Source: Pleurocapsa sp. FMAR1 (GTDB lineage: Bacteria > Cyanobacteriota > Cyanobacteriia > Cyanobacteriales > Xenococcaceae). From it: a DNA stretch of 64,000 bases. Location of the stretch: positions 3,906,001 through 3,970,000 of the forward strand of contig NZ_OY762512.1 in assembly GCF_963665995.1 (NCBI RefSeq). The letters are read 5' to 3'. The position numbers and the translations under genes were made by a program. A model generated the notes under the pieces. It did not search any database, was not told the origin of the DNA, and saw only the letters and a program-made list of their open reading frames with translations. The first letter of the stretch is position 1; every line of letters begins with the position of its first letter. Positions 45,700 through 63,570 of the stretch are shown here, one piece after another.

Positions 45700-46651
45700 A
45701 TGCCTGCTCCCTATAGCTACGATTTAAGAAAAAAAGCCGTAGATGCCTGTTCTAGAGGTGAAAAGAAGAGAACTATTTGTCGATTGATGAAAATAAGCCG
45801 TAACACCTTAGACCTATGGCTGAAAAGAGAACAAGAAACAGGAGACTTTAAAGCGGTCGCCGAGCGTCCCACCAGAGAAGAGCGAAAAATTCAGAATTTA
45901 GAGAGATTCAAACAGTTTGTTAAACAACATAAAGATAAGACACAACAGCAAATGGCAGATTTGTGGGGAGAGAATCTTACCCAGCAAAATATTAGTGATG
46001 GAATTAAAAAGTTAGGCATAACCAGAAAAAAAGCGGTCAGACCCCGCGTCGCCGACAGGCGCAAGACAAAGGGCTTGCCCGCATGTACGCTGACCAAGAC
46101 AAACTTACGGGTATCAAGAAACAGATGAAAAGAAAAGAAAAGAATTTCAAGAGCAACTAAAACATCAACAGGCAAATAACCTAGTTTATGTGGATGAAGC
46201 AGGATTCGATAACCGAGACGATTATCCCTATGGTTATAGCCCCAAAGGAGAAAGATGTTAGGCACTCAAATCTGATAAAAGAAATGAGAGAGTAAGTTGG
46301 ATTGCTGCATTCAAAGAAGGAAAAGTGTTTGCTCCGTTAACTTTTGAAGGGTCATGTAATCGAGATTTATTTGAGACATGGCTTAAAGAAAGTTTGATTC
46401 CTCAACTTCAACCTGGAAATATCATTATTATTGATAATGCTACTTTTCATAAAGGACAAAGTATTCAAGAAATAGTAGAAGAAGCAGGGTGCCAGATTTG
46501 GTATTTGCCCTCTTATTCTGCCGATCTAAACAAGATAGAGCGTTGGTGGTCGGTTCTCAAAACTTGGATGAAGCAGAGAGTTAAAGAATTTGAGACTGTT
46601 AGAGAATGTGTTGATACAGCTTTCAAAAAATGTCCTAACGTATATGCGTAA
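45700..46651 (+). pseudogene. IS630 transposase pseudogene
   Basis: Starts MPAPYSYDLRKKAVDACSRG with the usual HTH region and continues to GIKKLGITRKK. An HPR-1 repeat (46033-46100, 68 bp) then breaks the frame. Beyond it TYGYQETDEKKRKEFQEQLK and NLVYVDEAGFDNRDDYPYGY resume in the correct order; a TAG at 46259-46261 replaces a sense codon in KGERC(Y)ALKS. The C-terminus has the remaining DDE residues (IIIIDNATFHKG, DLNKIERWW). Two independent lesions make it inactive. Confidence 0.9.
46033..46100 (+). repeat. HPR-1 repeat inside the IS630 transposase
   Basis: Begins GCGGTCAGACCCCGCGTCGC and ends GTACGCTGACCAAGAC, arms GGTCAG/CTGACC. An extra mini-hairpin (AAAGGGCTTGCCCGCATG) lies inside. Its 68 bp shift the transposase frame. 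Insertion followed an A7 run. Confidence 0.9.
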
Positions 46652-46944
46652 TGCTATATAATTAGTTTGTCCTGTCTCCTTTCCTACGGCTTGATGGCGT
46701 TGGGAAGGGATTACTTGTTCATAGGCTTCCCAGAAATCACTATAACAAACGGCGCACTGTCGATAGACTGGAGGTAAAGAAGACCCAAGTTTTCTAGCTC
46801 CTTTTCTGCTGCGGTCGCCGACATGAACTCCAATCACTTCTTTAGTCTGAACATCTAAAGCTAGCCAAATCCACTGTTTATTGCTTTTATTGCCAACAAA
46901 TGACCACATCTCATCACACTGAATGGTCAGTTTTCCTGTCTTGG

Positions 46945-47716
46945 TGCGCCTTCGCGATTCGTCTTAAAAAGACGCGGTGAAGCAGTTGCGGTGGTGAGAC
47001 ACTTGCGTTGCGGACGGCAGTTTTTGAGGCGAGGAAACGCCCCCGTTTAGGGGGCTTGTTCCACTCGCCTGTTGGGACAGAATACTCTGACCCAAAACAC
47101 GCCTCGTCTATGACCCGTTGAGGTACCTGCGGGGGTTACCCTTTGGTTGTCGAGGGCGAGCAAACTGAGTCAAGGTTCCCTGGCATAAGCAAAGGCACGA
47201 ACCCGAAGGGAGGGAACCTCCGTTGCGAGACACCCTCGACAGTACGTGCGTACAAGTCCTTCGTCTGCGGAGGGAAAGCCAAGGCGCGTTTTGAGTGGGA
47301 AGCTTCTCACTCAAAAGCCGCCGTTCCTGCAAGGCTGTCTCGCAAAACCGTTGCGGGGGTTCCCCCCGTTGCGACCAAGGACGCTTCGTCCGCAGGTGAG
47401 TCCGTTGCGCGGGTTCCCCGCGTTGAAGGAACTGTCGAGGGCGAGATACCTGCGGGGGTTACCCCTTGGTTGTCGAGGGCGAGCAAACTGAGTCAAGACC
47501 CCGCGTGCGCGAACTGTCGGCGCGTTTTGGGTGGGAAGCTTCCTACCCAAAAGCCGCCGAGGAGTTCGCCGCCGTTGCGAAGCGCGAAAAAGCGTTGCGG
47601 GTCTGCGACCCGTTGAGCTTATTGAGCAAGAAGCAACGTCGAGCCGCATTTTGCGGCTGGCGCAAGGGAATGCTAACGGGTGTTGAACCATGCGCGGGGG
47701 TCGCACCGCTTTTTTT
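46945..47716. repeat. Large composite of nested palindromes
   Basis: A G/C-rich block of about 770 bp in AT-rich DNA. Its outer ends match HPR-1 (on the minus strand GCGGTGCGACC at about 47706 and GCGCACCAAGAC at about 46945), so it looks like one HPR-1 copy swollen by nested repeats. Inside are two HPR-2 palindromes (47283-47322, 47519-47558), several HPR-3 hairpins (47348, 47402, 47593), a GTTTA-loop hairpin (GCCCCCGTTTAGGGGGC) and a 51-bp direct duplication (47124-47174 and 47447-47497, one mismatch). Its open frames are not genes. Confidence 0.85.
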
Positions 47717-47842
47717 TAGCTGTCACGCTAACTTGCTTGGAAACTGATTCATATTTGTCATTGACGTAGTTTTGTAGCCAAGGTTCTGAAACATCTGTCA
47801 CTCTTGCACCCTCGACACTTGCTTCAAGTCGGTGAAACCGAT

Positions 47843-47882
47843 GGCGCGTTTTTTGTATGAATATTCACACAAAAAAGCCGCC
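47843..47882. repeat. HPR-2 palindrome, third copy
   Basis: GGCGCGTTTTTTGTATGAAT then ATTCACACAAAAAAGCCGCC, a 40-nt near-palindrome aligned end to end with the copies at 47283-47322 and 47519-47558. It lies in the short insertion splitting the IS1 transposase after KIPLAGIAR. Confidence 0.9.
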
Positions 47883-48148
47883 TTCCCAACGCAGTGTCTG
47901 GCAATCCCCGCCAATGGAATCTTTTCTAATAATAGCTTGTCAATTAAATTTTTGGTCGGTTGACTAATAACTTTTTGCTGTCGATTTTCGACGAACTGTC
48001 TACCGCAGTCACGACAACGATAATTTTGGTTTCCATTGTGAATTTTTCCATTTTTTACAATTTGCTTGGACTTACAAGAAGGACAGGATATTAACATCTT
48101 GCTCTACAAAATTATTTCTTCTTATATCCTTACATCTTTAGGACTACC

Positions 48149-62790: not shown

Positions 62791-63570
62791 TTAGCGGACT
62801 GTAAAATCTCTCTGCACAGTTAGGTCTAAGTCGTTGTTGGGATCGATAGAAATTAGCTCTGCTTTGTTTCCTCCCAACAACAGCCCAGCGAGCGCTCCAG
62901 CCCCAGCACCTCCAAGGACTTTTAATGCTCCAATATCGCCAAAGATTTCTGATAATACGGCAGCAGCACCACCACCAATAGCAGCACCTTTAAGGATATC
63001 GCCCGCATTTGCGCCTTTTTTGACAGTTTCTGTGCGGGTTATAACATTAGAAATTGCCTCAATGGGTAGGCTTGTACCGTCAGGAAAAATAACCTCATCG
63101 GCAACAAACAATGAGCCAGTTTCATCATTACTAGGTTGAATATTTCCTGAAATCTCGCTACCGTAAGGGATTAAGGTATTTTTTCGACTATCTCGCACAT
63201 TAGCTGCTACCAACAAAGTTACAGGTGTAGTTTCTTTAGGAGTTACTAGAATTTTGTCTTTGTCGTATTCTATGGGAATAACAAAGCCTTCAGGGACGGT
63301 ATTAGACGCACTAGCAGGAAAACGATCGCGTTGTTGGTCATTGTCTCTAGATGGGTTATATTCTCTGTCTCTAGTTGGATAATATTCCCTATTTCTAGGT
63401 GGGTTATATTCCCTGTCTCTAGGTGGGTTATATTCTCTGTCCCTAGTTGGTGTTTGTTCGGGAAAAAGCTGTGCTTGGGCTATATTGGCAAAATTAGCGA
63501 CCGTAGTTAGCGAAATAGCAAGAGTAGTAAAAATAGAGGTGGTTATCTTAGAGTATTTTGCGTTAAACAT
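62791..63570 (-). CDS. Secreted protein with octapeptide repeats and a glycine-rich C-terminus
   Basis: A 259-residue protein with a signal peptide (about 1-32, ending AQAQ), then four tandem octads of the type DREYNPPR (24-nt DNA period, about 63335-63450), a beta-type middle (VTLLVAANVRDSRKNTLIPY) and a C-terminal Gly/Ala helix (GAAIGGGAAAVLSEIF, GGAGAGALAGLLLGG) of glycine-zipper type. It may anchor in, or span, the outer membrane. No named family. Confidence 0.6.
   Translation of the reverse strand: MFNAKYSKITTSIFTTLAISLTTVANFANIAQAQLFPEQTPTRDREYNPPRDREYNPPRNREYYPTRDREYNPSRDNDQQRDRFPASASNTVPEGFVIPIEYDKDKILVTPKETTPVTLLVAANVRDSRKNTLIPYGSEISGNIQPSNDETGSLFVADEVIFPDGTSLPIEAISNVITRTETVKKGANAGDILKGAAIGGGAAAVLSEIFGDIGALKVLGGAGAGALAGLLLGGNKAELISIDPNNDLDLTVQRDFTVR

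Follow-up and report, generated by a model that had tools for sequence, protein, structure and literature searches.

The short palindromes designated HPR-2, three of which lie in the window (here the whole 64,000-nt stretch of Pleurocapsa sp. FMAR1 that was analysed), belong to a dispersed family for which we give a probability of roughly 0.6 to the following reading: HPR-2 is a mobile, non-autonomous DNA element, ~44 nt long, formed by little besides an imperfect palindrome of 22 + 22 nt and moved in trans by a putative enzyme. The suggestion of the earlier note, made from the window alone, that this is a structural element that spreads is supported by precise empty sites and by strong covariation within the family. 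The three 40-nt palindromes at 47283, 47519 and 47843 are indeed present and align without gaps; these copies and the two gene fragments around them are as follows.

47283-47322, + strand: core of copy 1, within the 44-nt unit 47281..47324 (AA-[core]-GT), in a GC-rich array of other repeats.
47519-47558, + strand: core of copy 2, within the 44-nt unit 47517..47560 (TC-[core]-GA).
47843-47882, + strand: core of copy 3, within the 44-nt unit 47841..47884 (AT-[core]-TT).
47798..48097, - strand: insA-like frame of an IS1-family element (Pfam Zn_ribbon_InsA, E 4e-10), interrupted by the module that carries copy 3; context only.
46526..46909, - strand: part of an IS1-type transposase (Pfam DDE_Tnp_IS1, E 6e-12); context only.

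Copies 1 and 2 sit in an array located between the IS1 transposase part and the insA part. For copy 1, the empty counterpart is a related repeat lacking the unit in locus L031, where GGGAAACCC directly joins TCCTGC. The flanks of copy 2 pair with each other and lengthen its stem by 2 bp; an empty site for this copy, sought in the gathered loci via the joined flanks, was not found. Copy 3 is nested in a module of ~95 bp, which itself splits the IS1-like insA reading frame. This module occurs without the unit in L182 of genome G002 and in L154 and L155 of the same genome as the window, with a net difference of +44 nt, and IS1-like copies that lack the module run continuously across its ends. The folding z-scores, obtained for four single strands (both strands of one copy and a single strand of each of the other two), range from -4.05 (copy 1) to -5.30 (copy 2).

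The GC-rich array (window 46930-47720) comprises several other short palindromic repeat families, and the pattern of one of its repeats, CGTTGCGGGGGTTCCCCCCGTTG, is found in 20 of the 360 gathered loci. An IS630-type transposase in two reading frames (45700-46651, + strand) adjoins the broken IS1, and a 24-nt tandem repeat, TCTAGGTGGGTTATATTCTCTGTC, at 63346-63465 forms four overlapping 48-nt copies with 24-nt spacing.

A dispersed family emerges from the search of the genome of origin, a single contig of 5.43 Mb, in which the pattern GGCGCGTTTT-N20-AAAAGCCGCC has 23 exact matches and the reversed pattern has none, which is well above what chance would give. When up to three mismatches are allowed, two further copies with GTCGCG..GCCGAC appear, in which pair 2/39 is changed from G-C to T-A on both sides, along with one copy that has a perfect outer palindrome and is matched on both strands; L034, a match with three mismatches, is non-palindromic and was dropped. 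With at most one mismatch, copies were detected in this genome and in 7 of 12 relatives from the same genus, and in none of 14 genomes from other genera of the family. The sole match among 33 genomes of the order (L094, another family) is non-palindromic and was likewise discarded. A covariance model with E up to 0.01 has matches in 8 of the 13 genomes of the genus; some palindromes appear on both strands in its counts, and its places are those among the matches listed. The named carriers are Pleurocapsa sp. CCALA 161, Waterburya agarophytonicola KI4 (order Pleurocapsales), a Myxosarcina MAG and the Hyellaceae MAG CSU_1_1, and 32 of the 59 stretches recovered in the scan of named genomes fall in these four assemblies. 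The other 27, all outside the genus, are singletons; of the 8 positions in their inner stems, 0-5 are paired, compared to 6-8 in 120 of 123 family copies, and they were treated as chance matches.

The carriers are scattered on an rpoB DNA tree. G000 has copies and its neighbour G004 has none (support 0.997), and the same holds for G007 and G009 (support 1.000); weakly placed are G008, beside G005 and G010 (0.459), and the pair G011 and G012, beside G001 (0.526). Identical cores occur in species with rpoB identity of 82-84%, for example, that of window copy 3 in G000 and G012. Altogether, the gathered set consists of 126 copies in 81 flank contexts, several of which share long flanks via larger repeats; three copies were kept out of the set of 84 cores by their low scores. 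Nine identical GTCG copies in G002 were considered as a burst, and this was rejected because the inspected ones share flanks, so that a larger repeat carries them.

Within the stem, the changes previously described at pairs 11/30 and 12/29 of the three window copies are as first given, whereas the central pair 20/21 of copy 3, claimed to be A-T, is actually T-A. The outer arms are constant, as claimed, but not fully paired: C5·C36 and G6·G35 are mismatched in all three window copies. The stem is laid out as 4 + 12 bp with an internal loop. Further stem mismatches are G·T at 16/25 in copy 1, G·T at 15/26 in copy 2 and A·C at 15/26 in copy 3.

The covariation across the family is strong. Among 72 distinct cores, 95.2% of the stem cells are paired, compared to 84.3±0.6% in shuffles, and double-change cells number 131 compared to 40.3±8.2, with such changes at 8 of the 16 pairs, these counts being drawn from related sequences rather than independent events; when the partners are slid by 1-3 columns, pairing falls to 38.5-58.5%. 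Furthermore, 22 of the 52 pairs of cores that differ at exactly two positions do so at both partners of one palindrome pair (30 elsewhere), when, by our estimate, the partner would be hit about 1 time in 39 if the second position were chosen at random. Fifteen of these 22 differences keep a Watson-Crick pair, and seven swap one mismatch for another. The rule that inner-stem changes are allowed only where pairing is preserved is nevertheless too strong: covariation is evident, but pair 15/26 is Watson-Crick in just 49 of 84 cores (pair 14/27 in 65 of 84), and two internal positions are kept unpaired. Each of these two, 5/36 and 6/35, is without pairing in 82 of the 84 distinct cores. C·C (74) and G·G (77) predominate, and T·C (5) and G·A (4) variants also occur, indicating that the mismatch is retained even when its letters change.

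Complementarity also extends to the adjacent central bases, 20 and 21, in 55 of the 84 cores, compared to 41.0 in shuffles (12 of 5000 shuffles are as high). Such bases cannot pair in a hairpin, so the hairpin does not explain their complementarity, which could come from a DNA-binding dimer acting on double-stranded DNA or from the copying of one arm from the other. The latter possibility, which had been raised at the outset, agrees with the central bases but implies that the internal mismatch should be erased, and it is paired in only 2 of 84 cores. In an alternative explanation, template switching during replication (quasipalindrome correction) creates both the palindrome and the covariation, the units move by some other route, and pairing is not selected. 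The central complementarity fits, and the two copies without the internal mismatch, L168 and L232, resemble corrected copies; general correction, however, would remove a mismatch that survives in 82 of 84 cores, and we regard this explanation as unlikely.

The most direct evidence for the movement of the palindrome as a mobile DNA unit comes from filled and empty sites. When the flanks of the 126 copies were joined, 58 had a spanning match without the core in the gathered loci, some of these matches being paralogous repeats or weak. In 14 of the 24 loci checked in detail, at least one comparison has 44 or 45 nt as the sole gapped bases: +45 in ten (L179, L190, L255, L178, L260_694, L254, L258, L055, L182_2716 and L192) and +44 in four (L066, L177, L219 and window copy 3); the remaining ten loci show further indels. 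The empty sites of L179, L258, L190, L055 and L066 are confirmed in 2-5 other genomes, and several empty counterparts are paralogues rather than orthologues, some from the same genome (L219, L255/L296, L192 and window copy 3). For example, L066 reads AAAGTTAC[core]TTTTGAATATGG compared to AAAGTTTTGAATATGG in the empty site of G012, and L190 reads TTTTAAGGC[core]GCACAGG compared to TTTYAAACAGG in two other genomes. Units are also nested inside other units (L208, L199, L229 and L176), in IS1-like elements and in other repeats. It is hard to reconcile these sites with a fixed regulatory RNA hairpin that is copied passively inside larger repeats. Several copies do ride such repeats, as the 81 contexts for 126 copies indicate, but the clean insertions of single units, including those in the coding sequence of otherwise similar genes, and the empty sites contradict passive copying; no Rfam family is matched within the window either, and we consider this alternative very improbable.

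The extent of the unit follows from the flanks. Positions -2/+2 are complementary in 45 of the 81 contexts (27.3 in shuffles), most contexts have a mismatch at -1/+1 (complementary in 27 of 81, 32.1 in shuffles), and from -3 outward complementarity is at or below that of shuffles. Because complementarity ends at -2/+2, the unit is taken to be ~44 nt, i.e., the 40-nt core with ~2 nt on each side. The end dinucleotides of the 126 copies are AA..G(T/C) in 44, AC..TT in 16 and GC..GC in 14, with others in the rest, and in 40 of the 81 contexts, T is the base immediately 5' of the unit (background 0.287, P 7e-5). The apparent target duplication has a length of 0-5 nt, with TTAC in L173 and L185, GTCA in L165, TA in L212 and L252, GTTAA in some, and none at L190 and L178. 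Taken as the only rule, a 4-bp duplication accounts for L165, L173 and L185 but fails at L190, L178, L203 and L066, and the description as a 44-nt unit was chosen for that reason. With 0 or 1 extra nucleotide, this description fits most sites; a duplication of 4-5 nt with altered copies fits some of them equally well.

Three copies, each from a different genome (L165, L150 and L182 around 2716), lie in the same short IS1-like stretch, which reads TATTTGTCATTGACG in the IS1 of the window; this stretch is a possible hot spot.

With respect to mechanism, we hypothesize that an enzyme supplied in trans would recognise the palindrome, probably through the mismatch, which would give the palindrome an orientation, and would move or copy the unit as DNA, either as a single-stranded hairpin or as a double-stranded palindrome. 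The variable apparent duplication (0-5 nt) and the mixture of +44 and +45 insertions are untidy for a classical transposase. The Y1 (HUH) tyrosine transposases were the first suspects because REP elements are tied to them, as stated in the portions of PMC3116915 and PMC3733652 used here, and HPR-2 might be a REP/REPIN-type element moved by such an enzyme on single-stranded hairpins. The imperfect hairpin with a conserved mismatch, the inconsistent duplication and the short preferred 5' target all point in this direction; Y1 matches are present in 13 of 13 genus genomes, and copies lie within ~0.2 kb of four of them (G008 has two of these four, and G002 and G003 have one apiece). The distribution of the copies, however, is discordant with RAYT/Y1 as the mover despite these four neighbours: G011 has 21 model matches (in which some palindromes count on both strands) and yet a single partial Y1 match covering 42 profile positions, whereas G010 has 27 Y1 matches and no copy. 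None of 34 scanned Y1 loci with their flanks, out of 115 Y1 matches, holds a copy; the scan covered 37 loci, of which L181, L255 and L260 were included for holding copies and are the sole ones that do. The Y1 gene in L255 is an insertion target, and a consistent GTAG tag is absent from the flanks (among the 126 copies, GTAG adjoins a single inspected one, L238). Taken together, a Y1 route appears quite improbable.

Another route, rather improbable in our assessment, is spread via an RNA intermediate that folds into a hairpin and is reverse transcribed, as has reportedly been proposed for the cyanobacterial SDR elements. The size class, the self-nesting and the compensatory changes match the features reported for SDRs, and reverse transcriptase domains are encoded in 13 of 13 genus genomes, a distribution that is uninformative as to the mover, except for G006. 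That genome has 48 model matches (again including second strands of some palindromes), and RVT_1 is matched there by no more than a 118-aa fragment and, weakly and in part, a 638-aa frame, which argues against this route. So does the absence of an excess of G·T over A·C among the stem mismatches on the strand as written (24 and 36, respectively), such that neither folded RNA strand is clearly favoured, and so does the persistent complementarity of the adjacent central bases.

A parent IS sharing the arms was also sought: none was seen in the 4 of 13 genomes searched by arm pattern, and no lone arms facing each other within 5 kb were noticed there by eye, a search that a parent with divergent ends would escape. 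Likewise, an enzyme that has been lost or has diverged would go unnoticed in all of these comparisons.

Some of the mobile units lie inside genes. Forty-eight of the 126 copies are within a stop-to-stop frame of at least 100 codons that is open through the core, some of these being GC-rich repeats; protein families were sought in 20 of these 48 frames. One case is pheT of the Hyellaceae MAG CSU_1_1 (TIGR00472, E 5e-158), which carries HPR-2 inside the B3/4 domain as an insert of exactly 15 residues, LTAAFEWEASHSKRA, with both sides conserved in the alignment to four other genomes; two solved PheRS beta chains have a gap where the insert sits. A single pheT was found in this genome, which is 95% complete, and since the record is a MAG contig with low stated coverage, there is a small possibility of an assembly error. 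Similarly, recG of G002 carries AARFGCEDSYPKAAA, which is lacking in recG of G003 and G006, and comparable 15-residue inserts occur in a TnpB (L254) and in a Y1 transposase (L255); such in-frame inserts are +45 nt.

The position relative to codons is biased in these genes. The unit lies exactly between two codons in 13 of 16 cases, in phase 0 in three and in phase 2 in none (P 4.9e-5 compared to open-frame frequencies, for 16 cases of mixed criteria and in a test formed after inspection of the data). Stop-free cores are most frequent in phase 2 (81 and 79 of 84 on the two strands); in the preferred phase, they are 53 and 51 of 84. Of the 16 cases, eight have a homologous empty protein; in the other eight, the open frame that holds the unit itself matches a protein family and has 25 codons or more to either side. 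For the former eight alone, the preferred phase is found in six (P 0.013). Not counted were L073, L186 and L173, which match no family (L173 is also +44), L259 and L185, with fewer than 20 codons upstream, L177 (+44), L218, with the same context as L214, and frames of GC-rich arrays, e.g., L004, L018, L019, L026, L120_1058, L152, L161 and L225. Insertions of +44 nt break reading frames in at least five cases (L066, L177, L219, L226 and the IS1-like gene of L150); the preferred phase is seen in one of the first four (Fisher 0.06) and not in L150.

Given that most units are stop-free on either strand in the preferred phase, 15-residue inserts might be possible without killing the gene. We infer that in-frame copies are seen because tolerable inserts survived, rather than because the unit is targeted to frames. 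Stop-free insertions of +45 nt in genes would survive selection by adding 15 mostly hydrophilic residues, and tolerance would be best for those that fall exactly between codons and encode ARFxxExSxSKAA or, from the opposite strand, its counterpart. On this basis, we tentatively propose, as a possibility that falls short of our favoured expectation, that these are selfish 'coding palindromes' of one cyanobacterial genus, mobile units of 44-45 nt that could give 15-residue inserts between codons, the single pheT of CSU_1_1 included, while the gene survives.

A separate observation concerns the P4-type primase gene (L299 120-165 in G006 compared to L182 8600-8740 in G002), in which the G006 orthologue has an unrelated in-frame palindrome, GGTGAGCCG..CGGCTCACC, near the HPR-2 site of G002. 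It seems that an unrelated palindrome does likewise at nearly the same place of the orthologous gene; its pattern is found at one further locus among the 360 (L046).

We read HPR-2 as comparable to several known systems without matching the full definition of any; a description of HPR-2 itself was not found in the literature searched. The SDR elements that Elhai et al. are said to have described from Nostoc in 2008 are reportedly dispersed non-coding units of 21-27 nt that form hairpins, show compensatory changes, are nested in themselves and in mini-transposons, and are limited to one cyanobacterial group. HPR-2 shares with them the very small size, the non-coding, dispersed and hairpin-forming nature, the compensatory changes, the self-nesting and the restriction to one cyanobacterial group. 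It differs from SDRs so described in being about twice as long (44-45 nt), palindromic nearly to the centre and equipped with a retained internal mismatch, in residing in Pleurocapsales, and in having some copies in frame. The SDR elements of Nostoc are cited in PMC4390886 and PMC3733652.

As described in excerpts of PMC10969869 and PMC2635572, the Rickettsia palindromic elements are palindromic mobile repeats, many of them in frame in protein genes, and the former source gives their size as ~150 bp. By comparison with these descriptions, HPR-2 is alike in its in-frame insertion into unrelated genes (pheT, recG, TnpB and Y1) and unlike in its size of 44-45 nt, its addition of 15 residues, its phylum and its common occurrence outside genes.

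According to the sections consulted of PMC3116915 and PMC3733652, REPs and REPINs are short imperfect palindromes with sub-families that show compensatory stem changes, and the CGTC-tagged REPs lack a known transposase; the latter source gives them a CGTC tag, a stem of 8-9 bp, a loop of 4-5 nt and a CCA-like tail. HPR-2 resembles REPs and REPINs, as portrayed there, in its imperfect palindrome and its sub-families of compensatory changes, and the CGTC REPs in having no transposase assigned to it. It departs from the same accounts in having no consistent GTAG tag, a stem longer than most and precise insertion of single units, as well as, in contrast to REP/RAYT systems, in the carrier genome G011, in which a full Y1 gene was not found; compared to the CGTC REPs of that account, CGTC occurs just where the GTCG sub-type follows C, and a regular CCA tail is absent. 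MITEs such as Nezha of cyanobacteria, named in the consulted parts of PMC3733652 and PMC10969869, are likewise non-autonomous and palindromic, and HPR-2 is presumably moved in trans as they are; as far as those parts describe MITEs, HPR-2 is distinguished by its 44 nt and may also differ in its target duplication, which appears to vary, and in its parent IS, of which none with the same ends was seen in the four genomes searched. What sets HPR-2 apart from SDRs, from REPs and from the Rickettsia palindromic elements is, in each case, its size, its tag or the accompanying gene.

HPR-2 is far too short to encode its own movement, yet has spread around the genomes of one cyanobacterial group, and the empty and filled sites are direct evidence that so small a DNA unit has moved. 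In one defined genus, its clean sites, orientation, target preference and retained mismatch make it possible to test how 20-50-nt palindromes spread in bacteria. With the in-frame insertions in pheT and recG, the phenomenon of the Rickettsia palindromic elements would reach free-living cyanobacteria at about one third of the size, and coding palindromes, if true, would provide a route from the smallest mobile elements to new protein loops.
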